Source of the DNA: Endomicrobium proavitum
GTDB lineage: Bacteria; Elusimicrobiota; Endomicrobiia; Endomicrobiales; Endomicrobiaceae
Assembly (NCBI RefSeq): GCF_001027545.1
Contig: NZ_CP009498.1
Location: forward strand, 682,001-746,000
DNA length: 64,000 bases
Direction: 5' to 3'
Positions 29,398 to 64,000 of the stretch are shown here, one piece after another. The translations under genes and the position numbers were made by a program. The notes beneath the pieces are model-generated. The model saw only the letters and a program-made list of their open reading frames with translations. It searched no databases and was not told the DNA's origin. Position 1 is the first letter of the stretch. Every line of letters starts with the position of its first letter.

Positions 29398-29444
29398 TTT
29401 TAGGTTTTCTTTTTAATTAATTTTTTATCGCTGCCAATTGCCGT

Positions 29445-30206: not shown

Positions 30207-30328
30207 TTTTACTCCCTTTGTGTCACTTAGTCGTTTTTTGTCTTTTGTTCTAAACTTGTTTTAACACCCGCAAAGCTGCAGATGCTGAAATAAATTTGGC
30301 ATAACAATAAATAACCACAATTAGATTT

Positions 30329-30394
30329 GTCATTCCGATGAAAATCGGAATCCATTTTTAGTTAACTTGGATATCGTGTCAAGCACGGTATGAC
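30329..30394. repeat. Pair of dispersed palindromic repeats in inverted orientation
   Basis: GTCATTCCGATGAAAATCGG...ATCCA and, 13 bases on, TGGATATCGTGTC...CACGGTATGAC. Each is itself a hairpin and the two face each other, with GTCAT..ATGAC as outer ends. Same family as repeats at 31.4, 35.9, 36.0 and 36.3 kb. Confidence 0.8.
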
Positions 30395-30415
30395 AAAAAG
30401 TGCAATATCTGACCT

Positions 30416-30447
30416 CTTTCAGAGGCGGGTAAACCCGCCTCTGAAAA
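30416..30447 (-). terminator. Strong hairpin after the 30.5-kb gene
   Basis: CTTTCAGAGGCGGGT/ACCCGCCTCTGAAAG, a 15-bp perfect stem about 15 bases past the stop codon. No T-run follows on the minus strand, so it may act as an mRNA 3' stabiliser as well as, or instead of, a terminator. Confidence 0.6.
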
Positions 30448-30460
30448 GAGAAACAAAAAC

Positions 30461-31300
30461 TTATTCTGTGATAACTTCCAAAGTCAACTTATCTGTTCCG
30501 TATCTGTGAGCAACTTTCGCGTCAAATGCAGATGTCGCGAAGAAGAAATACGCATCACCGGTAGGATAAGCATAATGAATTTCGCCCGGAAGCGCACCAT
30601 AACCTGTTCTAAGACCCTGGTCAGTCGCTATGATAGCATACTCGCCGGCATCAGCTGTGAAAGTAGGGTTCTTTTTGTCAACAGTTGCATATAGACCATA
30701 AATGATTTGACCAATGTTCAAATCAATCTGATCAATACTTGTAATAGTATTATATGCCACTCCTGCTGAAGGTGTTGCGGTTGTAAGAGCAATGTTTTTA
30801 GAAGAATCTACAACTCTGTAAGCCAAAGGAAGACCCGGAGCGTCTATAGGAACCGATCCTTTCATAACTGTCAACGGAAACGCCATGGTTGAAAGTAATG
30901 TGGCGTTAGCTTTGTAAGTTGTTGCGCTGGCAGTTCCATTCTGGTTATCAGTATAGAACTTTACAGTTGTTCCCGGAGCCAAACTTTTCACAGTGAGTTT
31001 TGCATACACTTTAGAGTTTGAGAACCATGTCTGAGGCTGTCCTGGTCCATAGGTAATACCATCACTGTTTCCTGGCTGAAGAGCTCTAAAGCCGGGTTCC
31101 CAGTCAATTTTTGGAGCTACTGCATCGCCTGCCGCAGGTTTGTTGCCAGCCATTTTCAAAAGCTGAAAACCAAACGCTGTGTAGGTTGATGCGAACGATA
31201 ATTCCGCTTTAAAGAAAGTGGAAGAACTTGCAGCAAACACAGAAGACGCTGCGGTTGCTACAAATGCTACTGCTACAAACAATCCTAACAATTTACGCAT
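30461..31300 (-). CDS. Exported protein of unknown function
   Basis: 279 residues from the ATG that has AGGAG eight bases ahead and opens a textbook signal peptide (MRKLLGLFVAVAFVATAASSVFA). The frame extends 21 codons upstream, but that part encodes two RNA hairpins. The mature protein starts SSSTFFKAELSFAS, echoing YKAEISFA in the 26.9-28.1 kb protein, and is Ser/Thr/Gly-rich beta structure. No known domain. Strong ribosome site, leader hairpins and a stable 3' hairpin suggest abundant expression. Confidence 0.75.
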   Translation of the reverse strand: MRKLLGLFVAVAFVATAASSVFAASSSTFFKAELSFASTYTAFGFQLLKMAGNKPAAGDAVAPKIDWEPGFRALQPGNSDGITYGPGQPQTWFSNSKVYAKLTVKSLAPGTTVKFYTDNQNGTASATTYKANATLLSTMAFPLTVMKGSVPIDAPGLPLAYRVVDSSKNIALTTATPSAGVAYNTITSIDQIDLNIGQIIYGLYATVDKKNPTFTADAGEYAIIATDQGLRTGYGALPGEIHYAYPTGDAYFFFATSAFDAKVAHRYGTDKLTLEVITE

Positions 31301-31318
31301 CCTTTTTCTCCTTTTTTT

Positions 31319-31366
31319 AAGATGGGGTTGCCATCTTCCATCTTCTTCAGATGAGCCTGCCATCTG
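31319..31366 (-). promoter_or_regulatory. Two tandem leader hairpins before the ribosome site
   Basis: Reading the minus strand: CAGATG-GCAGGCT-CATCTG (6 bp), then AAGATGG-CAACC-CCATCTT (7 bp), which runs into AAAAAAAGGAG and the start codon of the 31.3-kb gene. Placement right ahead of the Shine-Dalgarno suggests a role in mRNA stability or translation. Confidence 0.55.
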
Positions 31367-32003: not shown

Positions 32004-34892
32004 TTATCTTTCAACTGCAATCTTTATAACTTTCTTATTACCGGATAGGTCTTTTATTAACGCCATGTAAACTCCGCTGGCTACAAATTCTCCATTAGAG
32101 TTTTTGCCGTCCCAAATAGCAATAGCGCCGGCAAGCTGTAATGCTGTTATCTTTTCGCCGGAGCTTGTGTATATTGTTATTTGCGCTCCGTCGGGTAAAT
32201 TTGTGAAAGTCGCCTGCGACCACGCTTGCCCTTTGTGCGGTTTTAACGGGTTAGGATAACCTATAACGTTATCTAAATTTGTTGTGTGGGCAAAAGACAT
32301 CAGCGCGAAAATTGAAAGGTGGTCTAACTGCGCTGAAACGTATTTATTTTGTTTATCAACAACGGAAGACACTACCGGCAGCCACGAGCCGTTTTGATAT
32401 CTTGCTATTACAAGGGAATCTTCGTCAAGACCGGCAATATCCGCAACAGTGTAAGGTATTTTCAAAAGAATGGTTTTTGCGGGTTGATGCCCCGACGCTG
32501 AAAAATCTACGCCTAAATTGGTGTGTTTTAATTTTATACCGTTTAAATTTTCCGCAGGCAGATTTTTATTCTGACTTACAGACACTACAACGCCCGGGTT
32601 AAAAGTTGCAGACCTTATAAGCGCGCTGCCGGTGCCGACGGCGCCGTTTGAGAACTCTACGGGAAACGGAATTTCAACATCATAAAGCGGGTCAATAGGC
32701 TGACCTGCGCTGGACATGCCTATGTAAAAATTAAGAGCGGGCGCGGCAGAAACGCCGGGATAGGGCGACATGTAAACAGTCCACGTGCCGATATTTGCCA
32801 TGTAAGCCTGAAAATTTAAATTGATTTGATTTGAATTTGCAAAAGACGCCGTAGAATTTAACACGCTGCCGTTATTATCGTTTTTTATATAAAAACTTGT
32901 GTATGAATTTACAAAATTGCTTCCGTTGACGTCTATGTAAATAGTCTCGGTTGCAGTGCCGCTTAAAAGCACGTAATTTGCAGAAAGCGACGTAACTTGC
33001 GGATATGCGTAAACCGTCATAACGCCGGTTTTGGTTTCAGAATCTCCGGAGACGTTGTCTATAATTTGCAAGCCGTATAAACCGCTTGCGGCGCTTGACG
33101 CAAACGTTACGGAAGCGCTTATTGCGCTTGAACTTAAAACGCTTACGTTTGAGGCGTAAATCTGATTTGCTCCGTTTATTAATTTAACCGTTGCCGACGA
33201 CGGAAAATCATTCCCCGTTATACTGAAATTTACGGGAACGGTTTTTACGGCAACGTTTTGAGTTACGCTTGATATGGTTATTTTTCGAGAAGCTTTAAAC
33301 GTCATGGTGGAGCCGGTTGCTGAAATTTGGCTTATTGCAATATCCGCCGGATAACCGTCCCAGCCTATGCTTGACGGGTTTGAAGTATTTGTAAATTGCG
33401 GATTATTATTGTTACGGTAATAAAAACTGTCCCTGCCTTTGCTTAAATTTACAGCTAAACCGTTAGACCCGTCGGCTTCCTGCAAATCTAACAAATAATG
33501 AGAAGGGTCATTGTTGTCGCCGTTGTTTAATTTCCGCTCGTCAACGTGCCAAATAAGCACGCCTCTTGAGCTGCCGGGAAGATATTGGTCAAAGCCTATG
33601 CCTTGCCTGTTTTCTATGAGGTAATACTCGTTAAAACGAAACTGCGGGCCGCTGAATTTGTAAAAAGCGGTTTGATCTGTAGCCGCCGCGGGAAGCGAAA
33701 AGTAAGACGATGAACTTATTTCAACAGGGTCTATAAAACCTGAAAAATATTTAGTCCACGCGCTAAATAACGCCGGAGAACTGCCGTCGCTTCCGGGACC
33801 GTTCCAGCTGCCGCCGCCCATAATGTCGTAATTTCCCACGCCGTAGCTGGCGTAAGTTGTATCGTATAAATCCGGAAGATGAAGCATTGCGTGTCCAAGT
33901 TCGTGAGCGGCTACGCCTATTCTTGAAATTTGCGCGGCAGATTCGTTAGAACCTCTTAATTCCGGAATTGTGTTATAGGAGGAAATTCTTTTGCCGTCCC
34001 ATGTCGTAAAAAAAGGAGATATATTCCACTTATGCGACCATATTGCGTCGCTGACGCCCGCTTCCATACCGCCGCCGGCATGCACTACAGTTATAAAATC
34101 TATGCGCCCGTCGCCGTCTTGATCAAACTGGGCAAAATCAAAAGTGTGTGAAGCGTCTAGTAAAACAAGCGCCTGCTGAACCATTTGACGGGCATATAAA
34201 GTACCGCTTGCGCCCGCGTAATAACCCGATGTGCTGCTTAAAGTGATAACGGGCGAAACAACGCTTTCAACCTGAAGCTGACCGTAAGACGACGCGTTAT
34301 AAAAATCGTTAACCGAACCCAACGCGCCGTAATCGGTGTAATTTGCTTTATCAAAAAAATCTAAAAAAACTTGCTCGGGGTTTGACAATCTGAAAGGTTT
34401 ATCGGAGAAAGCCACAAGCAGCACAAGGTGTTTAAAAACCGTCGGACTACCCGAAAGCTGCGGCGAAGATTTTAAAAGATTTGCTTTTGTTGCGGCAGAT
34501 TTTTTTAGAGATTCTTTGTAAACGTTTTTGTCGTCGGAGAGCATTAAAGCTCTGCGGGAATTTGCAATATTTTGAAACCCTTCGGCTTTAACATGCTTGT
34601 TAAAACTAAGCGACGCCGGATTTACCCTCCCGCTCACTTTGTATTGCGTTTTTTCAAGTTTGCCGTTTACGCCGCGGCGCGCGTAACGCCACTCTTTGGT
34701 GGGAGTATCTTGTATAACAGTGTATCCGTCTTTGTCTTCAGTCCAGTGATAAAATTCATCGCCTTGAACTCTCAAAGAAACTTTTTCTCCGTCCGGCTGC
34801 AGCGCGTCAAACAACGCCGGAGACGCGGAAACCGCAAAAATTTCTCCGCAAAAAAGAAAAGATAAAACAGCTGTTAAAATAATTTTTCTCAT
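32004..34892 (-). CDS. M6-family secreted metalloprotease with C-terminal sorting domain
   Basis: 962 residues. Signal peptide about 1-20; propeptide with GDEFYHWTEDKDGYTVI, typical of the immune-inhibitor-A/M6 group. Catalytic zinc motif AAHELGHAML (His330, Glu331, His334) is followed by the LPDLYD segment. A beta-sandwich/IPT-like region occupies ~550-750. The last ~60 residues (LPDGAQITIYTSSGEKI, then WDGKNSNGEFVASGVYMALI) are a FlgD/T9SS-like domain. Probably extracellular or surface-attached. No Shine-Dalgarno; a -10 box lies seven bases before the ATG, suggesting a leaderless mRNA. Confidence 0.9.
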   Translation of the reverse strand: MRKIILTAVLSFLFCGEIFAVSASPALFDALQPDGEKVSLRVQGDEFYHWTEDKDGYTVIQDTPTKEWRYARRGVNGKLEKTQYKVSGRVNPASLSFNKHVKAEGFQNIANSRRALMLSDDKNVYKESLKKSAATKANLLKSSPQLSGSPTVFKHLVLLVAFSDKPFRLSNPEQVFLDFFDKANYTDYGALGSVNDFYNASSYGQLQVESVVSPVITLSSTSGYYAGASGTLYARQMVQQALVLLDASHTFDFAQFDQDGDGRIDFITVVHAGGGMEAGVSDAIWSHKWNISPFFTTWDGKRISSYNTIPELRGSNESAAQISRIGVAAHELGHAMLHLPDLYDTTYASYGVGNYDIMGGGSWNGPGSDGSSPALFSAWTKYFSGFIDPVEISSSSYFSLPAAATDQTAFYKFSGPQFRFNEYYLIENRQGIGFDQYLPGSSRGVLIWHVDERKLNNGDNNDPSHYLLDLQEADGSNGLAVNLSKGRDSFYYRNNNNPQFTNTSNPSSIGWDGYPADIAISQISATGSTMTFKASRKITISSVTQNVAVKTVPVNFSITGNDFPSSATVKLINGANQIYASNVSVLSSSAISASVTFASSAASGLYGLQIIDNVSGDSETKTGVMTVYAYPQVTSLSANYVLLSGTATETIYIDVNGSNFVNSYTSFYIKNDNNGSVLNSTASFANSNQINLNFQAYMANIGTWTVYMSPYPGVSAAPALNFYIGMSSAGQPIDPLYDVEIPFPVEFSNGAVGTGSALIRSATFNPGVVVSVSQNKNLPAENLNGIKLKHTNLGVDFSASGHQPAKTILLKIPYTVADIAGLDEDSLVIARYQNGSWLPVVSSVVDKQNKYVSAQLDHLSIFALMSFAHTTNLDNVIGYPNPLKPHKGQAWSQATFTNLPDGAQITIYTSSGEKITALQLAGAIAIWDGKNSNGEFVASGVYMALIKDLSGNKKVIKIAVER

Positions 34893-46790: not shown

Positions 46791-48302
46791 TTATTTATTT
46801 TTATTGGAGTCTGTTTTGATTTGTATTGGCTTTTTGTTTGATTTCGTCTTTTTTGCAGTCTTAAGCGTTTCTTTTTGAAATAATTTATATGAAACCGACT
46901 CTTTTTCAAAAGCCAAAGGGTTAAATGCGGATAAAACTAAATACCACCACGTTGTTGAAGACATAGAACTAACCGTATTATTGCCTTTGCCTCTTGCAAT
47001 TTCCCAACCGCCGTCTTCAAAAGTTTCAACAACCTCTTTCTCTCCGACTTTTGCAGAAGTATATGGAAGCACGCCTTCATTAGTCGCCGCTTTCTTTACT
47101 TCATTTGTGAAAAATACGGCTTTATCCCTGTAATATTTAAACATTTTTTGATCGCCCTGCTTTTTTGCATATTCCGACATAATCTGCATGGCAATTATAT
47201 GAAAGTTAGTTCCTTCAAACCAAATTACTCCCTTTCTGCTGCCTCTTCCCGCCGAAGACGTTAAATCGTAGCCTTTTACGTTAACTCCTTCCATCTTTGT
47301 TTCAACTAAAAAGTTTTTATCTACAAATTCCATCATCTTATACGGATCCGCGCCCATTTTTGCAAGATTTGACGGTCCCATTGCTAAAATTGTCCATGAG
47401 GTAGTGTCCAAAGGGTCAACGGTGTCAACGCCGGATTCATTGTAGCCTCTTACAAAAGTTTTTTTATTATTATCATATACAACTTTCATCATAAAATTTT
47501 CTATATTTTCCATCTCCGCGTTTATAGCGGCTAATGTGTATTTTTTATTTTTAAATATTTTAAGTATTTCTTTGTCGTTAAGTTCGTAAAGATCTTTAAG
47601 CATGTTCTTTAAAGCATAATCGTCTATAATATTTTCAGTTGAGAAAGTTTTAGAGAAATCAAGCCCCCAGCCGGAGCCCATTGATACCCCCCCCCGTGAA
47701 CCGTCGGCGAATGTAAAGTGGTTTAAAGAATCTATCCACTTGCTCATATCTATTACAAACGGCAAAAATTCCAACGACCCCGTCATTGCAGTATATTGAA
47801 GCGCCGCAACCGCAATCCATGCATTAGGCCCTACATGAATTTTATCGCCGTCAATACCAATAATAAGATTTTCATTGTAACCGAAATCGTCGGTTCTATA
47901 GCTTGTAAACAAACCTATATAGCCGTTTTTCTCTACATAAAACTCTTTTTGATAAACCCTTAAAATTTTAGCGGCTTTTTCATAGTTGAAACTTGCAACA
48001 TATGCCAAAACAGCCATTGCATTGTCATAAGTAAAACCCTGATTATCCAAAAGCCCCGCCTTAACATTGCCGTCAAGAGCATAAGAAGACGTACCTTTGT
48101 AACTTTGAAGAAGTTTTGTCCAATCATCCGTTTGATTTTTCAAATATTTAGTTATATTTTCGGTATCTTTATAATGACTTTTGACATAATCTAATCCATA
48201 CATGGATTGAGACAAAAATTGCTTTCTATATTGAACATCTACAACGCTTGCTTCCTGCGCCATATTTTTTTGCAAATTGCGATAGTTTTTTGTATAATAC
48301 AT
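46791..48302 (-). CDS. Six-hairpin-glycosidase-like protein, paralogue A
   Basis: About 500 residues of alternating helices with (alpha/alpha)6-toroid character: FTYDNAMAVLAYV, NAWIAVAALQYTAMTG, IWFEGTNFHIIAMQIMSEYA, and acidic loops typical of inverting glycosidases. No exact family is recognised. Paralogue B at 53.7-55.1 kb aligns over its whole length. The ATG at 48302 (or 48263) is preferred over a TTG at 48377, because the latter extension overlaps the ndk promoter. Unlike B, no signal peptide is visible in any frame. A nine-G run encodes Arg-Gly-Gly in SRGGVSMGSG. It ends in a basic, Thr/Lys-rich tail. Confidence 0.75.
   Translation of the reverse strand: MYYTKNYRNLQKNMAQEASVVDVQYRKQFLSQSMYGLDYVKSHYKDTENITKYLKNQTDDWTKLLQSYKGTSSYALDGNVKAGLLDNQGFTYDNAMAVLAYVASFNYEKAAKILRVYQKEFYVEKNGYIGLFTSYRTDDFGYNENLIIGIDGDKIHVGPNAWIAVAALQYTAMTGSLEFLPFVIDMSKWIDSLNHFTFADGSRGGVSMGSGWGLDFSKTFSTENIIDDYALKNMLKDLYELNDKEILKIFKNKKYTLAAINAEMENIENFMMKVVYDNNKKTFVRGYNESGVDTVDPLDTTSWTILAMGPSNLAKMGADPYKMMEFVDKNFLVETKMEGVNVKGYDLTSSAGRGSRKGVIWFEGTNFHIIAMQIMSEYAKKQGDQKMFKYYRDKAVFFTNEVKKAATNEGVLPYTSAKVGEKEVVETFEDGGWEIARGKGNNTVSSMSSTTWWYLVLSAFNPLAFEKESVSYKLFQKETLKTAKKTKSNKKPIQIKTDSNKNK
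47687..47695 (-). repeat. G9 homopolymer tract in paralogue A
   Basis: Nine consecutive G on the coding strand, in frame. Gain or loss of one base would truncate the protein. The equivalent position in paralogue B is coded without a run (CGCGGCGGC). Confidence 0.85.
48270..48298 (+). promoter_or_regulatory. Promoter of ndk
   Basis: TTGCAA, 17-base spacer, TATAAT; predicted leader of about 100 bases. It overlaps the 5' end of the divergent paralogue A gene. Confidence 0.7.
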
Positions 48303-48406
48303 GCGCTTTAAGTTTAAATTGGAGCATAATTTTAACTTTGCGGCATCGGCAAAATATTTTTTTGCAAAATGCTGCAATTTTTTATATGTCTAAAAGGAGA
48401 CAATAA

Positions 48407-52716: not shown

Positions 52717-53592
52717 TTATTCATACATTATATTGTCAAGATAAAATACGCAGCCAGCAGGGTTTGACTGTCTTGTAACGGTAAAACCAAACCCGCCTAT
52801 AATGTTGCTTAAATCCGCATCGCTAAGCCAAATTATATACTGCTCCCACTCAGCGGTAAGTTCAATAGGCCCTATAGAGCGCGAGTCGGAATCTTCAGAA
52901 TTTGATCCCTGAATGCCGCCGACAATAAAAGCGTTAATTGTTTCTCCGCCGTTTTCGCCTCTTGCCCAAAATGATAATCTTTCCGAGCCGGTAATATTAA
53001 AGCCGTAGCCGTTGCCGTTACCCCAGTTGTTGGCGGGCTCTTGCCAATACATGCCCGACCACGCAACGCCGTCGCTATATGCGTTGTAAACAACTTGTAT
53101 GCAAGTTTCTCCTACTTTAGGATTGCCTTTCCATGCCTGATTTATTTGCAACGCTCCCATATTGCCCATCTTTCCCGACGGGTAATAGTGATTGTATTTA
53201 TTTCCTATTGAGTGATAAACGTAAAAAGGTCTAAATCCCGAACTGTTTTTAAACTGCGCGTTTTCTTCAGGATTTGATTTTGCCTCAAGCGGTTCTTCTT
53301 TTACAACAGCCGGTTTAGACACGGCTCTTTTAGGAGAAGGCTTTGAAACTTTTTTCTTTTTGGTTTTTTTTGGTTTAGCCTTTTTTTTCGCAACAGGTTT
53401 TGGCGCCACGGCAGGCTTAACTTCTTTTTTTACCGTTTGTACCACGTTCTCAACTTGAGCCGGCTGACGGTGCAAAACGCGTTTCAAATATCTTTTCGCC
53501 GTCGGAAACCCAACGCAAGACCTTAACAAAAGCAATAATATTAAAATTATAAGAATTATTACTAACAACGCCGTAGTTTTTTTGCTTCGCAT
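52717..53592 (-). CDS. Membrane-anchored protein with basic linker and carbohydrate-binding-like domain
   Basis: 291 residues in three parts. (1) One N-terminal membrane helix (about 8-26) without a cleavage site. (2) A TonB-like Lys/Pro/Ala-rich linker (about 45-110, with AKPKKTKKKKVSKPSPKRA). (3) A ~175-residue beta domain: FRPFYVYHSIGNKYNHYYPSGKMG split over two strands, MYWQEPANNWG, LSFWARGENGGE, GPIELTAEW, IIGGFGFTVTR, and a final FYLDNIMYE. Part 3 recurs in three other proteins here and resembles CBM-like jelly rolls. Probably anchored in the inner membrane and reaching across the periplasm. Function unknown. Confidence 0.8.
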   Translation of the reverse strand: MRSKKTTALLVIILIILILLLLLRSCVGFPTAKRYLKRVLHRQPAQVENVVQTVKKEVKPAVAPKPVAKKKAKPKKTKKKKVSKPSPKRAVSKPAVVKEEPLEAKSNPEENAQFKNSSGFRPFYVYHSIGNKYNHYYPSGKMGNMGALQINQAWKGNPKVGETCIQVVYNAYSDGVAWSGMYWQEPANNWGNGNGYGFNITGSERLSFWARGENGGETINAFIVGGIQGSNSEDSDSRSIGPIELTAEWEQYIIWLSDADLSNIIGGFGFTVTRQSNPAGCVFYLDNIMYE

Positions 53593-53642
53593 TGTTTTAA
53601 ATCTCCATTCTTGCCGCTTACAAGCATTTAAAATACTTATAA

Positions 53643-53670
53643 ATTATACATTATTACATTTGCTTTGCAA
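53643..53670 (-). promoter_or_regulatory. Promoter of the 52.7-kb gene
   Basis: TTGCAA, 16-base spacer, TATAAT on the minus strand, overlapping the end of the preceding frame. Confidence 0.6.
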
Positions 53671-55136
53671 ATAGTTTATAGTTGATGTGCGCTCTGTCAA
53701 ACGCTAACGGATTAAACCCGGAAAGAGCGATAATATACCATCCGGTGGAAGAAGCCGAGGCTACCCACTGCCCGTTTTTACCTCTGGGAATTTCCCAGTC
53801 GTCTTTAAAAGTGGTAACAATTTCTTTCTCCCCGAGTTTTTTTGAAACATAAGGAAGAGCGCCGTCTATCATTGCGCAAAGCTGCGACGCTTTTTGCATT
53901 TCGTTTAAAAAGAATTTAGATTTCTGGCGGAAATATTCGGCTCTCTTTGGGTTTGCGTTATTGCGCGAATATTGCGACATAATTTGCATTGCCACAATGT
54001 GAAAAGCGGTTCCTTCAAACCAAATCATTTTATAATTTTTCTGTCTGCTGCGCTGATTTGTGAAATCGTAACCTTTAACTTTTACGCCCTCAATAGCATC
54101 CTCAACAAGATAATTCTTGTCGGCATAATTCATAAGATAATAGGGATCCACGCCCATTTTCGCAAGTCTGCTTGGCCCCACTGCGGCTACAGCCCAGCTT
54201 ACAGTATCAAGCGCGTCTATTTTATCTACGCCGTGTTCGTTATAGCCTACGTTAAAAGTTTTTTTATGTTTATCATAAACAACTTGCATAAGCCATCTTT
54301 CAATATTCAAAATTTCTTTTTTCATATCCTGCAAATTATATCCGCTTTGCGCAAATATTTTTTTTATTTCACTATTATCAATTGCGTAAATTTCCGTAAG
54401 CATTTTTTTAAGCGCATAATCGTCAAGTATGTTTTCAGTGGAAAAAACCGTGCTCCAGTCCGGACCCCAGCCCGAGCCCATTGAAACGCCGCCGCGCTGA
54501 CCGTCGGGAAAAGCGTAATGCGTAAGCCCGTCTGTCCATTTGCTTATATCTATCGCAAGTTTTAAAAAATCAAGTTTTCCGGTAATAGCGGTGTATTGCA
54601 AAGCCGCTATGGCAACCCACACGTTAGGGCCTACGTGCATTCTGTCGCCGTCAATACCTATAACCATTCCCCAATTGGTGCCTTCTTTGTCCGAACGGTA
54701 ACTGTTAAAAATTCCGTAATTCTCATTTTTAAGCATGTAAAATTCTTTCTGGTAAATGCTTAAAATTTTTTCGGCTTTATACGACTGATCGCAAAGCATA
54801 TAAGTTATAGCGGCAATAGCTCCGTCGTAAGTAAAGGATTGCGCATCTAACGCCCCCCCCCCGTCCGTAAGCAAAAGAGTTTGTAAAAATATCATAACTG
54901 TAAATTGAAGTTCCTCTGAAACTTTCTACAAGCCCGTTTACTGCGGAAGTTTGTCTTGAAAAGAAATCTGCAACTCTCATTTGATTGCGGTAATAATTTC
55001 GGTTTGCGCCGTCGGTAAGAAACTGCTCGCGGTATTTTTTATTTACAACATCCGCCGCATTAACAGAAGCGCAGAAAACAAAAAACGACATCACTATAGA
55101 TAGGCTCTCTCTAATTCGCATTAACATTTTCCCCAT
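53654..55136 (-). pseudogene. Six-hairpin-glycosidase-like protein, paralogue B, split by a G10 tract
   Basis: Two overlapping frames together encode a homologue of paralogue A. The N-terminal frame (to ~55136) gives a signal peptide (SFFVFCASVNA) and residues to FTNSFAYGR. The other frame resumes with ALDAQSFTYDGAIAAITYML and continues to the end. They are out of phase by one base exactly at a run of ten G's; nine would restore a single ~490-residue exported protein. A perfect promoter precedes it. So it is either a phase-variable gene caught OFF, a fresh mutation, or a homopolymer sequencing error. Translation may start at the third nearby ATG (MRIRESLS). Confidence 0.85.
54853..54862 (-). 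repeat. G10 homopolymer tract causing the frame break
   Basis: Ten G's on the coding strand between GGAC and CGTTAG. The reading frame is restored whenever the count is a multiple of three (9 or 12). The longest G runs noticed in housekeeping genes of the window are seven. Confidence 0.9.
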
Positions 55137-55158
55137 AGTATTGTAATAGAATTTTTGT

Positions 55159-55187
55159 AGTATAGCTATTAATAATTTTTATGTCAA
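55159..55187 (-). promoter_or_regulatory. Consensus promoter of paralogue B
   Basis: TTGACA, 17-base spacer, TATACT on the minus strand; predicted start about 16-30 bases before the candidate ATGs. Confidence 0.8.
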
Positions 55188-55217
55188 TAAAAATTCTTTT
55201 CGGCATACGTCCTCAAT

Positions 55218-55502
55218 TCATTTTAAGGCATTTTTTACTTTATCTAAAATTTTACTTGCAAGTTTTAAATTAAGCGCTGTTTTTTTTGCGACTTTTAATA
55301 TATTGTCATCGCCGGGGTTTAACGCTTCGCCGTCAACGGCAGTTGCATGTTCGCCGCCAAAACCTTGTCCTTCGCTATAAACCAAATCATAAGCAGGTGA
55401 AAGTTTCCATTTTCCGTCTGCAAACCGGCCAATATCATATTCAAATATGCTGAAAGTATCTTTTTGCGCTACCGTTCCCATCTTCTTATTGCAGAAATTT
55501 TT
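55218..55502 (-). pseudogene. HipA-like kinase, C-terminal remnant
   Basis: About 90 codons that match only the C-terminal end of HipA-family kinases: KNF, then FEYDIGRFADGKWKLSPAYDLVYSEG, GGEHATAVDGEALNPGDDNILKVAKK. The kinase core and the HipB antitoxin are absent, and the frame closes within a few dozen bases upstream. It is a decayed fragment of a toxin-antitoxin-type gene. Confidence 0.7.
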
Positions 55503-55552
55503 CCTACTACCCTGTTTTATCTGTTTTAACGGTTAGCTTGAATTTTTGTAAT

Positions 55553-55589
55553 AAAAAAAACACACCTTAAAGAAAGATGCGCTTTTTTT
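55553..55589 (-). terminator. Terminator after the 55.6-kb gene
   Basis: On the minus strand AAAGCGCATCTT, short loop, AAGGTGTGTTTTT: a 9-bp stem including G-U pairs, then eight T's. Confidence 0.65.
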
Positions 55590-55612
55590 ATTTGTATCTA
55601 AAAAACATTTAT

Positions 55613-56839
55613 TTACTCTTCAAAATAAACATAATCATAATCTATATACTCAGGAGGCACAGGGATAGGCAGACCAAGCTGTAGTACAAGATCAACTTGA
55701 GCAAAAACTATGTTTACAGGAACTACAACCATAGGATTAATTGCAATTAGGTCGGATATGTCCATTTCATACTTTTGCCAACTGCTTGTAAGCGGCGGCC
55801 ACGCTCCAATACCTGTCATCCATTTTCTATAACCGGCAGCGGTTGCAAATTCTACTTGTATTGCAGCGTTGGGAGTAGGCGACTTCAACCAAATAACCAA
55901 TTTAGTAAAGCCAGACAAATTAACAGGAACATCAACATGCGTGTCAGGGACATAAGTTCCTGTTCCGTAATTATAAAACCACCCTGACCAAGCTTCAATA
56001 TTGTCAAAGTATATACGCTGATATGAAGCTGAATCTCCGGGAGCCCCCCCACCTATCATATGAGTATTTACTGAAGTCGTCCCGCCATTTTGACCATACA
56101 ATCCAAGGTCTGTCATCAAGTCCGGCCCCACGCCGGCATCGCTTAATATATATCTTCTATTCCCCGGCGCCGGAGAATTAATACCAAGAATTATAGAGTT
56201 GCTCATCACTCCGGCAACTGAAGCGTTTACCGTTATATTTCCAACAACAGCGTTAGCCGTAAACGAAATTGTTGATGAATTAACATTTATGTAATTTCCA
56301 TATCCGCCGGGCGTTATTGTCCAATTAACAGCAGGCATACCCGACATTGGTGCGCCTGCGGTGTCTAAAGCTACAGCATATATGATTGCAGATTCTCCTG
56401 CGGAGAGTGTGTTTGTTGACGTATAAATTGCAACGCTTCCTATAGGCGCTGCGTTAACTACTATAGGAAAAGAAGCGGTAACACCGCCGCATTCAGCAAT
56501 TATTTGACCATAAACCTGACCCGCCAACGCTGAAACTTCAAACGTTGTTTCTTTAGCTTCTGAATTTGAGAACGTGCCTATTATAGTTTGGTCTGTATCG
56601 TTTTTGATGCTCCAATGAACATCTGAAGTAATTTCTTCACCACGAGAGTTAAGAAGAATAGCTTTTAAATCAACAACATCGCTGTTTAAAAGGCTTCCGT
56701 TACTGGCAGTTAAAAATTGAGATTCAATTTTCACTCTCAAGGTGTTTTGTGTTAGTCTTTTTAATTTTTCAGGAGCGCATGCAATAAGAATTGCACCGGA
56801 TACTAAAAATAGGGTTGCTAATATTAAGATTTTTTTCAT
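55613..56839 (-). CDS. Lipoprotein with Ig-like and carbohydrate-binding-like domains
   Basis: 408 residues. Lipobox ILIAC at about residue 21. Two bacterial Ig-like repeats (about 35-130 and 130-220, the second with GSVAIYTSTNTLSAGESAIIYAVALD) precede a C-terminal jelly-roll (FTKLVIWLKSPTPNAAIQVEFATAAG, SSWQKYEMDISDL, final YVYFEE) distantly like the other sugar-binding-like domains here. Contains a G7 run in GGGAPG. Ribosome site AAGGAG. Substrate unknown. Confidence 0.75.
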   Translation of the reverse strand: MKKILILATLFLVSGAILIACAPEKLKRLTQNTLRVKIESQFLTASNGSLLNSDVVDLKAILLNSRGEEITSDVHWSIKNDTDQTIIGTFSNSEAKETTFEVSALAGQVYGQIIAECGGVTASFPIVVNAAPIGSVAIYTSTNTLSAGESAIIYAVALDTAGAPMSGMPAVNWTITPGGYGNYINVNSSTISFTANAVVGNITVNASVAGVMSNSIILGINSPAPGNRRYILSDAGVGPDLMTDLGLYGQNGGTTSVNTHMIGGGAPGDSASYQRIYFDNIEAWSGWFYNYGTGTYVPDTHVDVPVNLSGFTKLVIWLKSPTPNAAIQVEFATAAGYRKWMTGIGAWPPLTSSWQKYEMDISDLIAINPMVVVPVNIVFAQVDLVLQLGLPIPVPPEYIDYDYVYFEE

Positions 56840-57128
56840 ATTCTATTTGCTCCTTATTTTACGACTATATTGAATTGAAATTTTAATTTACAAAACTTGA
56901 ATTCCAGACTACAAATTGCGAAAATAACAGGCAAAGAGTAAAAACAAACTTGCTCCGAATTGCTTCCCGTCTTCGTTACACTACAACGCGGCAAACTTCC
57001 CCGTAAACTACAGATGCCGAAACATTTATCTTCGGCGCTTCGCTTCTACAGCGCGGTATAAATCAAATATTGTGGCGTAGAGACGCAGTCCCAAAGAAGC
57101 AAGTTCGGCATGAAAAGTATTGCAAATG

Positions 57129-57950
57129 CTATTCGTAAACTACGTTGTCTAAATAGAATACAGCGCCGTTTGGATTGCCGTCTCTTGTTATGGTAAAACC
57201 AAAGCCGCCGATTACATTGTTTAAATCTGCGCCGGTAAGATGTATTGTATATTGCTTCCATTCTTTTGTAAGTTCAATTGGACCAATGGCTCTTGAGTCT
57301 GAATCTTCAGAATCTTTTCCTTGAATTCCGCCAATTATAAAGTTGGTAATTTCTTCGCCGCCATTTTCACCTCTTGCCCAAAAAGAAAGCCTTTCAGAAC
57401 CGGTAAGATTAAATCCGTAGCCCTTATCGCCCCAGTTGTTTGCGGGTTCCTGCCAGTAAACGCCTGCCCAAGCCGTGCCGGCTTTTAACGCATTATAAGT
57501 AATTCTTACACAAGTTTTTCCGAACTTATTATCTTTTTCCCACGCCTGATTAATGTTTATAGCGCCGACATTTCCCATCATGCCTGAAGGATAATAATGG
57601 TTATTTTTATCTCCGATTTCCGAATATATATAAAAAGGTTTAAAACCTGACTTATTTGAATATACAGGCGATTCTTCTTTAACAGATTTTTGCGCAGGCA
57701 CAGGCTCAACAGTTTTTTTATCTTGTGTTTTGGAAACTGAAGATTGTTTTGTCACAACCCGCACTTTGGGAGATGGCGCTTTAACCGGAACTTCATCTTC
57801 TGCAATAATTTCTTCGGTCTGTTCTATTGCAACAGGTCTTTGAAATCTCTGCTGAAATTTTTCTAAAATTCCGCAAGGCTTCAAAAACAAAAGAATTAAA
57901 ATTATTATTAATGTTATAGACAACAAAAATGTCGTCTTTTTACTTTCCAT
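57129..57950 (-). CDS. Membrane-anchored protein with proline-rich linker and carbohydrate-binding-like domain
   Basis: 273 residues, same plan as the 52.7-kb protein: MESKKTTFLL start with a membrane helix (about 7-24), a Pro/Val/Lys linker (about 45-90, EDEVPVKAPSPKVRVV), then the shared domain (GFKPFYIYSEIGDKNNHYYP, YWQEPANNWG, LSFWARGENGGE, IGGFGFTITRDGNPNG, FYLDNVVYE). Linker sequences of the two have diverged while the first 8 residues and the domain stay close, suggesting duplication followed by relaxed linker evolution. Confidence 0.8.
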   Translation of the reverse strand: MESKKTTFLLSITLIIILILLFLKPCGILEKFQQRFQRPVAIEQTEEIIAEDEVPVKAPSPKVRVVTKQSSVSKTQDKKTVEPVPAQKSVKEESPVYSNKSGFKPFYIYSEIGDKNNHYYPSGMMGNVGAININQAWEKDNKFGKTCVRITYNALKAGTAWAGVYWQEPANNWGDKGYGFNLTGSERLSFWARGENGGEEITNFIIGGIQGKDSEDSDSRAIGPIELTKEWKQYTIHLTGADLNNVIGGFGFTITRDGNPNGAVFYLDNVVYE

Positions 57951-57967
57951 TTATATATACCAAGAGT

Positions 57968-58459
57968 TTAGATTTTATGACTGTAGTTAAACATATACGC
58001 CGAACGGTTTTGATCGTAACCTACGTTAAATGCAGATTTTTTTGCTGCCCCGCCTTCTGCAATTTGGCTTTGGCATGTAAAATAAGCGTCTATAACAGCA
58101 TAAAGCCAAACAGCTATTGCACCGTAAGTAAAGTATGTAGAAGTGTTATAATTTGTTTCGTAATCATTGTATAAGTTACCGTCTATTGCTCCAAGAGTTT
58201 TGTATTCGTTATATTTATTGTTTGCCTGACCGTTAAAATAGAAAGCTCCGCCAACGGCAGCAGCAAACAATCCAAAAGTAATCCAGCCTTTTACAGGTTG
58301 CTCATTCCAGCCTTGTCCCCAGCCGGGCATTAAAACTGAACGCAACGCCGCGTTAAACGGTTTTGCCTCAGAAAAATCTAATTCAAAATTTCCGGCAAAT
58401 GCGTTAGCGTTAAAAAACAAAACAGATACAACAACAAGCGCCGCTATAATTTTTTTCAT
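57968..58459 (-). CDS. DUF5683-like membrane protein
   Basis: 163 residues. Signal peptide (about 1-22), then FNAALRSVLMPGWGQGWNEQPVKGWITFGLF, the conserved core of DUF5683-type proteins, and two further membrane segments with an aromatic-rich middle. Function of the family is unknown. Lies 17 bases before the membrane-anchored gene and 1 base after the lipoprotein gene. Confidence 0.7.
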   Translation of the reverse strand: MKKIIAALVVVSVLFFNANAFAGNFELDFSEAKPFNAALRSVLMPGWGQGWNEQPVKGWITFGLFAAAVGGAFYFNGQANNKYNEYKTLGAIDGNLYNDYETNYNTSTYFTYGAIAVWLYAVIDAYFTCQSQIAEGGAAKKSAFNVGYDQNRSAYMFNYSHKI

Positions 58460-59131
58460 TTATCTTACCAGCCTTATATCGTCAATATATATGGTTCCGC
58501 CATTTGTAACATTTCCCGCAATAGGAGACATTTGCACAGTAATATACGTGTAAGTTAGCGCAGGCGAAGGAGACAAAGGAATTTCATAATATGTCCAATC
58601 CTGCAAAGCAGTTATTGACGTTACGGCATATGGAGAATTTCCGCTATTATCATTATTCAAAACTTTTATACTAACTTGGGCATTTGTATATAAATTAGCT
58701 TTTACCCAAAAACTTATTTTTGTGTATGCGCCGGGAGTTAAATCTTTTCCGCTTGTGCCGGCAGATGTAGGCAGCCAAAAAGTAGCTAAATAAACAGTGT
58801 TCCCATTATCAAAAACCTGACTTGGACTTCCGTCCCAACCCATTTTTATAGATTTATGACGCGTATGAGATTCGCCATCGTACTGCGCTTCAAGAACGTT
58901 TGTGGCATTCGCATAGGCTTCCCAAATATTTGTATAAGCCCCGACAGATTTAGAAAAAGGAAGAACTCTTGTCATTATATCGCCATTGGCATAAATGACA
59001 AACGGACTTGCCCATGAGGCGGGGTCTGTGTCATTTACTCCGTTATAAATAAGAGCGCCTGCAGGATTGTTTTCACAACCGGCGGTAAAAAACATTATTA
59101 ATGGGAGTGCAAGTAAAAGTAGTTTTTTCAT
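58460..59131 (-). CDS. Lipoprotein with carbohydrate-binding-like domain
   Basis: 223 residues; lipobox FTAGC at about residue 19. The body is one jelly-roll domain (AYTKISFWVKANLYTNAQVSIKVLNN, WTYYEIPLS, GGTIYIDDIRLVR). It is more distant from the other copies and lacks the YWQPANNWG motif. Same operon as its neighbours. Confidence 0.75.
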   Translation of the reverse strand: MKKLLLLALPLIMFFTAGCENNPAGALIYNGVNDTDPASWASPFVIYANGDIMTRVLPFSKSVGAYTNIWEAYANATNVLEAQYDGESHTRHKSIKMGWDGSPSQVFDNGNTVYLATFWLPTSAGTSGKDLTPGAYTKISFWVKANLYTNAQVSIKVLNNDNSGNSPYAVTSITALQDWTYYEIPLSPSPALTYTYITVQMSPIAGNVTNGGTIYIDDIRLVR

Positions 59132-59132
59132 T

Positions 59133-59777
59133 TTATTTTTCCATTTCGTATCTTATTTCGTCTAAATAGAACGTTGCGCCATTGGGATTATCTTTTTTTG
59201 TTACCGTAAAGCTAAATCCGCCGGCAATACGCGTTAAATCCGTTTTCCTTAAATCTATGTGATACAGTTTCCAATCTTGAGTAAGTTTTATGTTTTTCTT
59301 GAAAGCAGAGCCGGAATCCGGATAATCGCCTTTAAACCCGCCGATTTTTACTTCGGATATAACTTCACTGCCTGTTTCGCCTTTAGCCCAAAAAGTTATA
59401 AAAGTCGCTTTGTTTAAATCGTAACCATCAGGGTTTGAACCCCAGTTGTTTGCAGGTTGCTGCCAATAAATTCCCACCCAGCGATTGCCGCCTTTGGGCG
59501 TATATTTTACCTGAATACAAGTTTTTCCGGCATAAACGTCTTTCCTATATTCCTGATTAAAAATTAAATCTTTACTGTCGCCCATCCAGCCTGACGGAGA
59601 GTAGTGATTTAAAACGGATTTATTATCTGCGTAAACGTAAAAAGCAAGCTCCGCTCTTTCTTGCGGCGAAAGATTAGTTGACACGGTCTTAGTTTTAGCC
59701 GCGCTTACGGAAGAAACGTGGATACAAATAAAACCGAATGCTAATACCGATAAAATTAAGAGTTTTGCTTTTTTCAT
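59133..59777 (-). CDS. Exported carbohydrate-binding-like domain protein
   Basis: 214 residues from the ATG preceded by AAAGG; a start five codons earlier has no ribosome site. Signal peptide about 1-27, then the shared domain almost at once: AFYVYADNKSVLNHYSPSGW, YWQQPANNWG, ITFWAKGETGSE, IAGGFSFTVTKKDNPNG, FYLDEIRYE. No membrane anchor, no linker. First gene of the 57.1-59.8 kb operon. Confidence 0.8.
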   Translation of the reverse strand: MKKAKLLILSVLAFGFICIHVSSVSAAKTKTVSTNLSPQERAELAFYVYADNKSVLNHYSPSGWMGDSKDLIFNQEYRKDVYAGKTCIQVKYTPKGGNRWVGIYWQQPANNWGSNPDGYDLNKATFITFWAKGETGSEVISEVKIGGFKGDYPDSGSAFKKNIKLTQDWKLYHIDLRKTDLTRIAGGFSFTVTKKDNPNGATFYLDEIRYEMEK

Positions 59778-60089
59778 TTTTAAACCTTTCATTTTTTGTC
59801 GCTCTGAATTTATTTCAGAGCCTGGTGTTTATTAATAATCTAATTATTCAGCGCCTTGCCCTTCACAATAACGGACTTCATGACTCTTGCGACAAATTCT
59901 GAAAAGCAATTGCCCTCAAGATGACAAATTAAAAACACTTATACGGACAACTGTTTTAGATTTTCCACTGCGTTCAAAATAGCAAGCATAATTACAATGA
60001 TAATAAGAACATTGAAACCAAAACTATTTACGCAACCCCTCACCCTGCCCTATCCCCTTGCGGGGATAGGATTGAGTTAGGGTATTTAT
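59778..60089. other. Intergenic region with two inverted repeats
   Basis: About 310 bases. GCTCTGAA/TTCAGAGC (59801-59821) lies in the leader of the 59.8-kb gene. CCTATCCCC/GGGGATAGG (60049-60070), within CACCCTGCC...GAGTTAGGGT, resembles widespread REP-type repeats and sits 20 bases past the stop of the next gene, where it may end transcripts. No coding sequence seen. Confidence 0.6.
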
Positions 60090-60692
60090 TTATTCGTAAA
60101 TAATGTCGTCAATGTAGATTACAAATCCGTTCGGATTGTCGTCTTTGCTTGCTGCAAAGCAAAATCCGCCGATTATGTGCGTCAAATCTTTGCCTTTCAA
60201 GTCTATCGTGAATTTCTGCCATTCTTTTGTCAACACTACTGGCCCTATTGACTGTGAATCTGAATCAGGAAATTCTCCCGTGATTCCTCCTACTTTAAAC
60301 TCTGCTATCTTTTCTCCGCCCTGCTCGCCTCTTGCCCAGAATGTCAATTTTGTTGCTCCGGTTAAATTGTAGCCGCCTTTCTTTTCTCCCCAATTGTTTG
60401 CTGGCTGCTGCCAATATATTCCCGACCATCCTGCTCCTTGCGCCATTTTTGCTGTATAGGTTATTTTAAAGGCCGTATTTCCGCTTCTCGGTTTGTCTGT
60501 TGACGCCTGTGATATTTTCAAATCGCCGTAATCGCCCATCCATCCGGAAGGCGCAAAGTGATTTGCTTTTGACGCGTTTTCTACGTACACTGCAAACGGT
60601 TTGAACGCCGGCGCTTTTGCCTGCCCGAACGCTGCTGCCGCTCCCGTTGCTACAAAAGCTGCTGCCATTACTAATGTCATTGCTTTTTTCAT
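60090..60692 (-). CDS. Exported carbohydrate-binding-like domain protein
   Basis: 200 residues: signal peptide (about 1-24, GAAAAFG) plus the shared domain and nothing else (FKPFAVYVENASKANHFAPS, YWQQPANNWG, LTFWARGEQGGE, GPVVLTKEW, HIIGGFCFAASKDDNPNG, IYIDDIIYE). Strong AGGAG ribosome site. It follows the OmpA-type barrel gene by 36 bases, so the two should be co-expressed. Confidence 0.82.
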   Translation of the reverse strand: MKKAMTLVMAAAFVATGAAAAFGQAKAPAFKPFAVYVENASKANHFAPSGWMGDYGDLKISQASTDKPRSGNTAFKITYTAKMAQGAGWSGIYWQQPANNWGEKKGGYNLTGATKLTFWARGEQGGEKIAEFKVGGITGEFPDSDSQSIGPVVLTKEWQKFTIDLKGKDLTHIIGGFCFAASKDDNPNGFVIYIDDIIYE

Positions 60693-60728: not shown

Positions 60729-63530
60729 TTAATTATTAGGAACAGTATCTTTTACTTCTTTTGACTGATTTTCATCTACAACTATCGCGTTATTGAGAAC
60801 TATAATTTCAACGCGTCTGTTCTGCTCTCTTCCTTTAGCCGTGTTATTGTCCGCCACGGGTTTAAGTTTTCCAAATCCGGTTATTTGCATTCTATCCGCT
60901 GCAACGCCCTGTTTAACAAGGAAGTTTTTAACGGATTTCGCTCTGTCTTCAGATAACTTCTGATTGTAAGCTACCTTTCCTACCCAATCGGTATGACCTT
61001 CAATTGCTATGTTGTTGTCAGGGTATTTGTTAAGCAATACCGCTACTTCCTGCAATGTTTTTGTAGCGCCGGATTTCAAAGCAAACTTACCGCTGTCAAA
61101 CAACACTTTCGCGCCGAGAGAAATTACAAGACCTCTTTCTGTTTCTTTTACGTCGGCATTGGCTATTTTAGGTCTTGTTGCAACTATTATTTTAGCAGGT
61201 TCGGTAATATCTTTATTGCCGTAATTATCTATACCTTCCAAGGTTGCAAAATATTCGCCGTCAGGACATATTTGTCCGTTTCTTTCATTTCTGCCGTCCC
61301 ACTTAAGTTCTTCAGGGGTCTCAATTTCGCCGTCAAAATGTTTAACCGTATTTCCGTTAACGTCTTTAATGTTAATTGACCATTTTTCTATGCCGGAATG
61401 ATCTGAAGCCCACGGTTCAAGAGACGCTTTGCCGCCGTCGGCAGGGTAAATTGTATCCGGATAAGCTTTTAAAGCAATTTGAGGAGCGGTTTTATCAAAC
61501 TCTACGCCAAAAGGCATTCCGCCCTCTTCGCCTCTGTCGCCGAATTTAAATACTCCGTCAAAATATATTTTAACAAAAACTCTTATTTCGTCAAAAGTCC
61601 CAAGTTCGTTGCTTAACTCTTGATCCACAAAAGCAGGATCGCTTAAAAGAGCTGAATTTGTTTTTCTTCCGCCTACATATTCTACGCCAAAGTTAAACCA
61701 TTTGCCAAGGTCTCTGCTTATGTGAGCAAGATAAAGCTCGTCAAAAGTAGCGCCGAAGTTTCTGTGCCAATCTTCAGGTCCCCAGAAATTTTTCAAATAA
61801 GCAACTTTGAAAAGATAAGGTTTTGTATCAACTTTTAAACTTGTCTTAAAGTATCCTATAAAAGAAGAAGTGTATGGGTCGCGTCCGCTTCCGCCGGAAG
61901 TATCAGAATACGGATAGCTTAAAGTTGCCAAATCTTCACCAACTTCAAAATCATAAAGTATTTTTGTATTATTTTTAATAAATTGAGTTAACAAATATAA
62001 AGAACCTATGTATCTATCCGGCACATTTGTTCCGTTAGCATAAGCATCTTCCCAAGCGGTAGAGCCGTCATATTCCCAATACTGCTGCCTGTCAAGCGGA
62101 CCGCTGTATTTTGCCAAGTTAACTTTTGCAGCAAAAGAAAACGGCGCGTCTTCTTCAGGATTTAAATTGTATTCAACAGGCTCGTTCGGCATATAATTAT
62201 AGAACCACGTTGAAGGCGTTGGATCGTAAGTGAAAACAAAGGATAAAGCGCTTGTTTCTCTGTTGTCAAAACCTGTTATAGGATTTCTCCACCAAACCCA
62301 AAAAGGACTTTCGGGACCTCTTGCAGATATTGATACAGGGCCTGATCCGCCGCCTGAATAAACCAAAGGCATTGCGGAAAGCAATGGTTTCTGATAAGAG
62401 TATCCCAAAAAAGTATTTATATATTTTGTCAAAGATTTTTCTACGGACGCGTTAACTTTTTGTCTGTTGCCCGCAACTAAACCTCTGTATTCATAACCAA
62501 CATTAATAAGGTCAAGCAAGAATTTTTTACGAAGCTGCCACTGAAGAGACCCGCCAAGCGCGTCTTTTTCGGTTGTTTTGTCTGTTTTTACTTCATATTT
62601 AGAACCGTTTAATCCGTTTCCAATACCAACATCTTCAACGTATTGATATTCTTTGTTAAGTCTAAAAGGTCTGTATAAAGCCCCTACCTGAAGGGTTGTA
62701 TTCAAGAATGTAAAATCTGTATTAAGTTGGAAATTTCTCATTCTTTCGTCTTCAAAACCATAAGGTATTACATGATCTGAATAAAAGAAATTTATGTTAG
62801 AATGGAATATATTTTTATACTTTACATATATACCTTTCTTATAATCTTGAAGAACTTCTTCGCCGTAAATAACATCTAAATCGCCGTAGAATCCTTTAAT
62901 TTTTAATTGCCAATAGTCCGGCGTATGGTGTCCTGAATATCTTAAATAATTGTCGGCGTTATCTTGCCTTGGAAGCATATCAAACAAGTCGCCTTCATAA
63001 ACCCAGCCCTGATGTCCGTAATTTTTATGGTATGCAAGATAAATCCAGTCTGTTTTTATACCGATTCTGGCGTTGTTCCAATTTAAATGATAGAAAGGAC
63101 TTGTAAGACTTTTAAAGCGGTGTTCTTCGTTTATAGGCATCCAGAATTTATCGGCATAATCGCCAAGAAATTCAACGCCGAACTCGGCAAAAAACCATTC
63201 AGTAGGTTTTATTCCCAAATTCAAAAGAAGAGTTTGTCCGTATGTGTCTGTCCATTTATTATTATGTGTGGCAGGGTTTGACGGGGTATAACTCATAAAC
63301 TTGCCAAGACCGGATCTGTCCGGATAAACAATCCAACCGTCGCCGGGTTTGTGGAAATAGGAATCAAAGGTTAATTCGCCTTTAAGTTCAATTGTCCCAG
63401 GTTCTAAAATGTCTGTGTTAATTCTGTTGTAATGCGCGTATGGTGAAAAAAGATCGGCATACGAAGAGGTGCGAAATGCGAGAAGAGATAAGAAAACTGT
63501 TGCTGCTATGAGGATTGATTTTAATCTCAT
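60729..63530 (-). CDS. Large outer-membrane barrel with FlgD-like and OmpA domains
   Basis: 933 residues. Signal peptide about 1-25. Residues ~30-670 are Tyr/Trp/Asn-rich alternating strands of a large outer-membrane barrel. About 690-785 is an Ig/FlgD-like fold (WSINIKDVNGNTVKHFDGEI, LKWDGRNERNG). The C-terminal ~120 residues are an OmpA peptidoglycan-binding domain (NIAIEGHTDWVGKVAYNQKL, REQNRRVEI). It should tie the outer membrane to the wall while presenting a barrel outside. Barrel substrate unknown. Confidence 0.85.
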   Translation of the reverse strand: MRLKSILIAATVFLSLLAFRTSSYADLFSPYAHYNRINTDILEPGTIELKGELTFDSYFHKPGDGWIVYPDRSGLGKFMSYTPSNPATHNNKWTDTYGQTLLLNLGIKPTEWFFAEFGVEFLGDYADKFWMPINEEHRFKSLTSPFYHLNWNNARIGIKTDWIYLAYHKNYGHQGWVYEGDLFDMLPRQDNADNYLRYSGHHTPDYWQLKIKGFYGDLDVIYGEEVLQDYKKGIYVKYKNIFHSNINFFYSDHVIPYGFEDERMRNFQLNTDFTFLNTTLQVGALYRPFRLNKEYQYVEDVGIGNGLNGSKYEVKTDKTTEKDALGGSLQWQLRKKFLLDLINVGYEYRGLVAGNRQKVNASVEKSLTKYINTFLGYSYQKPLLSAMPLVYSGGGSGPVSISARGPESPFWVWWRNPITGFDNRETSALSFVFTYDPTPSTWFYNYMPNEPVEYNLNPEEDAPFSFAAKVNLAKYSGPLDRQQYWEYDGSTAWEDAYANGTNVPDRYIGSLYLLTQFIKNNTKILYDFEVGEDLATLSYPYSDTSGGSGRDPYTSSFIGYFKTSLKVDTKPYLFKVAYLKNFWGPEDWHRNFGATFDELYLAHISRDLGKWFNFGVEYVGGRKTNSALLSDPAFVDQELSNELGTFDEIRVFVKIYFDGVFKFGDRGEEGGMPFGVEFDKTAPQIALKAYPDTIYPADGGKASLEPWASDHSGIEKWSINIKDVNGNTVKHFDGEIETPEELKWDGRNERNGQICPDGEYFATLEGIDNYGNKDITEPAKIIVATRPKIANADVKETERGLVISLGAKVLFDSGKFALKSGATKTLQEVAVLLNKYPDNNIAIEGHTDWVGKVAYNQKLSEDRAKSVKNFLVKQGVAADRMQITGFGKLKPVADNNTAKGREQNRRVEIIVLNNAIVVDENQSKEVKDTVPNN

Positions 63531-63623: not shown

Positions 63624-64000
63624 TTATTTGGTTATATCGTTTTTCCAAAGCACTTCTTGATAGACGTAGTAAACATCTCTTAAGCGTCTTTCAAACGGGC
63701 TGTGTTTACCGTTTCCCTGAGAAGACATGCCAAACCATTCGTCGTGAAAAGTATTGTCGTTTTTTGGACCCGCCCACGAGCCGAGCTCAGTGTCATGAAC
63801 TTTTGCAGAACCTACAAGCCACCATTTATCTAACCAGCAATAAACCACTCCGCCGACAGCGTTTCCCGCGCCGGCGTCGTTGTAGGCGCTGTTTTTTTCA
63901 ATATCGCGCCACGCGCCGATATGATATTTAGACTGAAATCTTTCGTCTTCTCTTTTCAATTTTGAATTGTAAGCGTCGCAGCCGAACTCCGATATTAAAA
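63624..64000 (-). CDS. Glycoside hydrolase (TIM-barrel type), C-terminal part
   Basis: Open frame of 125 codons running off the window's right edge; only the C-terminus is visible. It enters at LISEFGCDAYN, which matches the beta-strand-7 nucleophile motif (xSExG) of clan-A glycosidases such as families 2 and 5. GGVVYCWLDKWWLVG follows, as in the beta-8 W-containing strand. A TTG at 63959 is not the start because similarity extends beyond it. Substrate cannot be judged. Confidence 0.7.
   Translation of the reverse strand, partial: LISEFGCDAYNSKLKREDERFQSKYHIGAWRDIEKNSAYNDAGAGNAVGGVVYCWLDKWWLVGSAKVHDTELGSWAGPKNDNTFHDEWFGMSSQGNGKHSPFERRLRDVYYVYQEVLWKNDITK

Follow-up and report, generated by a model that had tools for sequence, protein, structure and literature searches.

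Among the closest described counterparts of the locus analysed here is the beta-1,3-glucan locus of Bacteroides, which comprises SusC/SusD, SGBP-B and GH16, GH158 and GH3 enzymes, and in which non-enzymatic glycan-binding proteins are likewise encoded together with endo-glucanases of GH158, a family that includes endo-beta-1,3-glucanases (PMC7157763). A second comparison is offered by bacterial GH161 clusters, mainly Gram-positive (Paenibacillus, Acholeplasma), which likewise hold GH161 and other glucanases, with ABC sugar transporter genes adjoining GH161; characterised GH161 works on beta-1,3-gluco-oligosaccharides (PMC6484121). As for the Elusimicrobiota, a survey of termite-gut genomes credited the major lineages with very few glycosidases and no part in polysaccharide degradation (PMC11481507), and the CUT1 transporter of the family considered here has been described as a putative glucose system and reported lost in Endomicrobiellum (PMC11257099).

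Endomicrobium proavitum is a termite-gut bacterium from a poorly studied phylum, with a genome that forms one contig of 1,588,979 bases. We analysed a window of 64,000 nucleotides of this genome, in which a preliminary description had noted an array of proteins sharing one domain and had proposed a non-SusCD system for glycan capture or cell-wall display. Our analysis makes it fairly likely that the array supplies the envelope half of a system for beta-1,3-glucan utilisation, with the domain a predicted carbohydrate-binding module (CBM) that is undescribed in Pfam and NCBIfam. Capture is thus supported as a prediction, by fold and by linkage, whereas cell-wall display found little support; to the earlier reading we add beta-1,3-glucan as the probable class of ligand and a putative role in catabolism.

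Compared with the Bacteroides locus, that of E. proavitum is without SusC/SusD, repeats one domain on several carriers, and has a CUT1 ABC transporter and a phosphorylase where the former has a GH3 glucosidase. It differs from the GH161 clusters in its repeated binding domain, its OmpA-tailed protein and its lipoproteins, and also in that the transporter is unlinked to the array, a point that counts against the explanation we favour.

One domain on several carriers

The four domain-bearing ORFs described between 52717 and 60692 were all found at their coordinates, and they have in common a domain of ~170 aa, about 50% identical among them (47-48% identity to the first sequence in the alignment), each copy of which was found by the family profile at E<=1e-67 in a search of the E. 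proavitum genome; such sharing is far beyond chance. All features of the array lie on the minus strand. Copy 1 (60090..60692) and copy 2 (59133..59792) consist of a signal peptide and the domain, copy 1 being a predicted secreted protein, while copy 3 (57129..57950) and copy 4 (52717..53592) have one N-terminal helix, predicted to lie in the inner membrane, followed by a Pro/Lys-rich linker and the domain. A Cys after the helix had raised the possibility of a lipobox, but given that relatives conserve the helix and not the Cys, we rejected this and take the helix to be a membrane anchor. The N-termini therefore agree with the division into two anchored and two exported copies that was first drawn, with one amendment: copy 2, thought to be exported alone, is indeed without a lipobox in E. 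proavitum, but its orthologues in relatives bear one (FICAC). Read from the N-termini, the domain would be displayed on secreted proteins, on a lipoprotein (in relatives) and at the inner membrane, that is, at several envelope layers, as had been surmised.

The preliminary description had also credited two lipoproteins with distant versions of the domain, and the profile matches bear this out. The lipoprotein at 58460..59131, which in addition gives a weak CBM_4_9 match under cut-off, matches the domain at E 1.2e-5 and its orthologues do so to about 1e-10; relatives of the lipoprotein at 55613..56839, whose family has the distant version at the C-terminus, match to 2.6e-10 (all in a small search space). 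To judge by these matches the former protein and the relatives of the latter belong, distantly, to the domain family. In the genome-wide profile search the array yielded four strong copies as well as the 58460 lipoprotein, and one further strong copy lay at G000:C1:1583322-1583921.

Among these genes lie a small DUF5683 membrane protein (57968..58459), which is a conserved neighbour, and a gene (53654..55136) that had been rightly recognised as glycosidase-like, of the (alpha/alpha)-barrel type, but wrongly delimited, for it starts near 55136 and its frame is broken at a 10-G run (54853-54862). A paralogue at 46791..48377 is associated with the system because it is homologous and lies nearby. 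Upstream are an exported 933-aa protein with a C-terminal OmpA peptidoglycan-binding domain (60729..63530), presumed to be an outer-membrane barrel, and the C-terminal end of a GH158-like clan-A glycosidase (63624..64000), the remainder of which (L037 2-871) is beyond the window. The array runs on past the window edge to about G000:756407, with three more clan-A glycosidases after the edge-straddling one and then the phosphorylase, and the genes past the latter are unrelated. Elsewhere in the window, 25234-26274 was suspected of encoding an ABC ATPase from relatives found near GH158-like genes, and was rejected when a Pfam match proved absent.

Predicted fold of the domain

An alignment of 105 members, in which the aromatics W59, W64 and W71 are strongly conserved, served for modelling and for Pfam searches. 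The AlphaFold model is a beta-sandwich (mean pLDDT 97.8) like that of solved CBMs, and its best match among PDB structures was CBM30 (E 3.4e-7, TM 0.62-0.66, 14-16% identity), followed by CBM4, CBM11, CBM8, CBM29 and CBM22 modules, so the sugar-binding type of fold that had been anticipated is the one predicted. On the other hand, the Pfam models CBM30, CBM_11 and CBM_4_9 did not reach the gathering score (best E 0.0056-0.0078, in 1-4 of the 105 members), no Pfam or NCBIfam model reached its cut-off on the domain, and the few matches of the profile to PDB sequences included CBM30 and CBM4 chains, none of them significant. Because the structural matches are to CBMs while all Pfam and NCBIfam scores fall below cut-off, prediction supports a domain of CBM fold outside the curated families of these two collections; newer CAZy families may hold it. 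The domain thus shares with CBM30, CBM11 and CBM4 modules the fold and, in some relatives, fusion to beta-glucan-acting enzymes, but it is about 11-18% identical to them and is mostly free-standing or membrane-anchored.

Transport genes

No SusD was found in the E. proavitum genome, and its sole TonB-dependent receptor, at G000:510332, is about 220 kb from the array. The pairing of SusD with a TonB-dependent receptor that characterises SusC/SusD loci is consequently absent, in agreement with the non-SusCD label. Omnitrophota operons with the domain do contain an SBP and two BPD_transp_1 permeases, the composition of a CUT1 (MalEFG-type) transporter, and their SBP and permease have one E. proavitum match each, at 500-503 kb, where an SBP and two permease frames, from 500.5 kb on, make up the CUT1 set of this organism.

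Gene order and co-occurrence in relatives

Scanning for the domain alone gave 80 loci, mostly from Elusimicrobiota and Omnitrophota, together with scattered MAG contigs that bear the labels of other phyla and may in part be misbinned. GH158-like genes were present in 52 of these loci, ABC permeases in 33 and SBPs in 23 (the loci are single-linkage clusters, and related ones are not independent). The common order in Omnitrophota is SBP, permease, permease, GH158-like (~780 aa), two-domain protein (~390 aa) and GH158-like (~415 aa). In Endomicrobium and a sister genus it is GH161, three GH158-like genes, OmpA-tailed protein, domain, domain, lipoprotein, DUF5683, anchored domain and (alpha/alpha) glycosidase, with genes gained or lost locally. 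The genes are therefore linked in relatives, as a system of the kind first proposed would have it, although the more distant genera of the family have the enzymes elsewhere in the genome, apart from the domain array, which counts against our explanation.

Among 77 genomes of the family the domain occurred in 33, GH158-like genes in 32 and GH161 in 28. Domain and GH158-like genes agreed in 70 of the 77 (Fisher 1.2e-13, or 3e-4 when a genus of reduced genomes is left out, both uncorrected for phylogeny), and a close orthologue of the E. proavitum SBP (63% identity or more) was present in 27 of the 28 GH161 genomes and in no others. The reduced genus, probably Endomicrobiellum, comprises 42 genomes of 1.4 Mb or less; GH161 is absent from all of them, the domain is left in seven, in some with stops, and six have only a 38-51% relative of the SBP. 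Domain, GH158-like enzymes, GH161 and CUT1 SBP are thus found together across the family, and in this genus they have mostly disappeared.

Enzymes and the probable ligand

The phosphorylase aligned over ~900 residues to GH161 chains (E 6e-186 to a chain named GH161A), a full-length similarity that places it in this family. It has no signal peptide, whereas the glycosidases have one. For the clan-A glycosidases the PDB profile gave GH158 as the top two matches (1.5e-22, 1.9e-17), with GH2 enzymes close behind; among the top matches is entry 6pal, which we take to be GH158. Most of the GH158-like proteins inspected have NE and TE(F/Y)G motifs, as sought for the clan-A pair of catalytic Glu residues, their membership of GH158 being remote, and in the E. 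proavitum genome such enzymes are confined to this locus, barring one weak match. Neither Pfam nor PDB sequences yielded a family for the (alpha/alpha)-barrel glycosidase, and what its moderate-confidence model supports is a fold class, with GH76 and endo-beta-1,2-glucanase among the neighbours.

In some Omnitrophota operons a GH94 and a ROK regulator are added; GH161 was considered for these phosphorylases and rejected, those tested being GH94. One of them is nearest laminaribiose phosphorylase (E 3.5e-215) and another nearest cellobiose-type enzymes. The domain itself occurs fused to a GH26 lichenase (1.6e-50), to a GH17-like enzyme (1.3e-5 to beta-1,3-glucanosyltransferase; Pfam GH17 below cut-off), and to relatives of the (alpha/alpha)-barrel enzyme of the array, once with a weak dockerin match. 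The sub-threshold GH17 score and the remoteness of the GH158 membership count against our explanation.

Given GH161 in the array, the laminaribiose-type GH94, the GH17-like fusion and GH158 as best match, we propose that the gene set probably captures and digests beta-1,3-glucan. It was not unreasonable to consider that the same machinery might serve another glycan, such as mixed-linkage beta-1,3-1,4-glucan, cellodextrins, beta-1,2-glucan or mannan. The fold neighbours of the domain include CBM30 and CBM11, of which the latter binds mixed-linkage glucan, the lichenase fusion and the neighbours of the (alpha/alpha) enzyme are compatible with it, and the cellobiose-type GH94 of some Omnitrophota implies that the glucan linkage may vary, which counts against our explanation. 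The GH161, GH94, GH17 and GH158 indications named first nevertheless all point to beta-1,3 linkages, and we regard a different ligand as the less probable choice, to be kept in mind.

On the beta-1,3-glucan reading, the domain copies would hold glucan chains or fragments beside the exported GH158-like and (alpha/alpha)-barrel glycosidases, which would cut them. The OmpA-tailed protein might let fragments through the outer membrane, although this is a guess, and the stalked copies at the inner membrane would hand them to the CUT1 ABC transporter, after which the cytoplasmic phosphorylase, by its GH161 membership, would free glucose 1-phosphate. More tentatively, and with somewhat less than even confidence, we suggest that the domain may be a new beta-1,3-glucan-specific CBM family, the hallmark of a SusD-less glycan locus common to Elusimicrobiota and Omnitrophota in which like domains at the cell surface, in the periplasm and at the inner membrane would pass the chain inward. 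Our data suggest that free-living Endomicrobia and many uncultured Omnitrophota have a dedicated beta-glucan system, which can escape annotation, its domains being remote or uncurated. As E. proavitum is in culture, the beta-glucan claim can be put directly to the test, and the domain could find use as a beta-1,3-glucan reagent.

The second chromosomal copy

In eight Endomicrobium loci a copy of the domain follows genes for an rRNA-methyltransferase-like protein, an ECF sigma factor, an anti-sigma zinc-finger protein and a small exported protein. This setting, and the OmpA peptidoglycan-binding tail within the array, would suit a domain that binds the cell's own envelope polymer, its copies being structural or stress-related organisers of wall or periplasm and not nutrient receptors. 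The genes with which the domain is linked and co-occurs, namely those for a cytoplasmic phosphorylase, a sugar ABC transporter and a ROK regulator, fit catabolism better, however, and we consider such a role unlikely. Least probable is a non-sugar beta-sandwich for protein-protein contacts or surface anchoring. In its favour, beta-sandwich folds are reused, the same structure search also returned flagellar sheath protein FlaA1 along with an adhesin and a MAM domain, and the nearest NCBIfam model was choice_anch_J (below cut-off); against it, the domain has been fused independently to at least three glycosidase types and keeps its conserved aromatics.

The second copy of this putative glucan-binding domain in E. 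proavitum is DNA-identical to the copy at 60090-60692. The identical stretch is 617 bp long, opening at the ribosome-binding site and closing shortly after the stop codon, and the sequences flanking it show no extended similarity. For the corresponding pairs identity is 93.5% in one relative and 82-87% in a further three, and the E. proavitum copy differs from the copies of those relatives by about 22-26%. A simple recent duplication is less likely as the source, given that seven other Endomicrobium loci also have a copy at the sigma-factor-linked site, and the identical copies are most simply explained by gene conversion having homogenised an old pair.

Identical domain genes at unlinked sites

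The gene for copy 1 of the shared carbohydrate-binding-like domain (60090-60692, minus strand) and an unlinked second copy on the E. proavitum chromosome (G000:C1:1583322-1583921, or 1498-2100 of the extracted locus L002) share 617 bp of identity, bounded exactly by the gene. The second copy lies downstream of an ECF sigma/anti-sigma operon, an arrangement found in eight Endomicrobium loci. Together, the gene-length identity of unlinked copies and this conserved site suggest that gene conversion has occurred repeatedly between the two, and that the second-site copy is tied to an envelope signal. A Mutator-family transposase gene (L002 389-1228) adjoins the identical second copy.

In three draft genomes of another genus (G014, G146 and G011), contigs end within copy 1 (loci L119-L124), the fragments of which lie on two contigs and are 96-98% identical; such broken contigs would be expected if that genus also carried a near-identical second copy.

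Other candidate components of the proposed glucan system

The sole E. proavitum matches to the transporter of the Omnitrophota beta-glucan operons are a CUT1 sugar-binding protein and permease at G000:C1:500533-502660 (L140 and L141), published as a putative glucose transporter (PMC11257099). Of the 28 genomes that encode GH161, 27 also have a close orthologue of this sugar-binding protein.

Three genes for exported proteins at 28099-31363, adjoining an M6-type peptidase gene (32004-34892) and lacking a significant Pfam match, have homologues directly after the (alpha/alpha)-barrel glycosidase in three loci (L043, L047 and L098), and are possibly satellites of the proposed glucan system.

The reading frame of that glycosidase gene is interrupted in the window by a run of ten G (54853-54862), reflecting either phase variation or a homopolymer error in the 2015 PacBio assembly. 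Its paralogue at 46791-48377, in which a signal peptide is not evident, has a nine-G run of its own (47687-47695).
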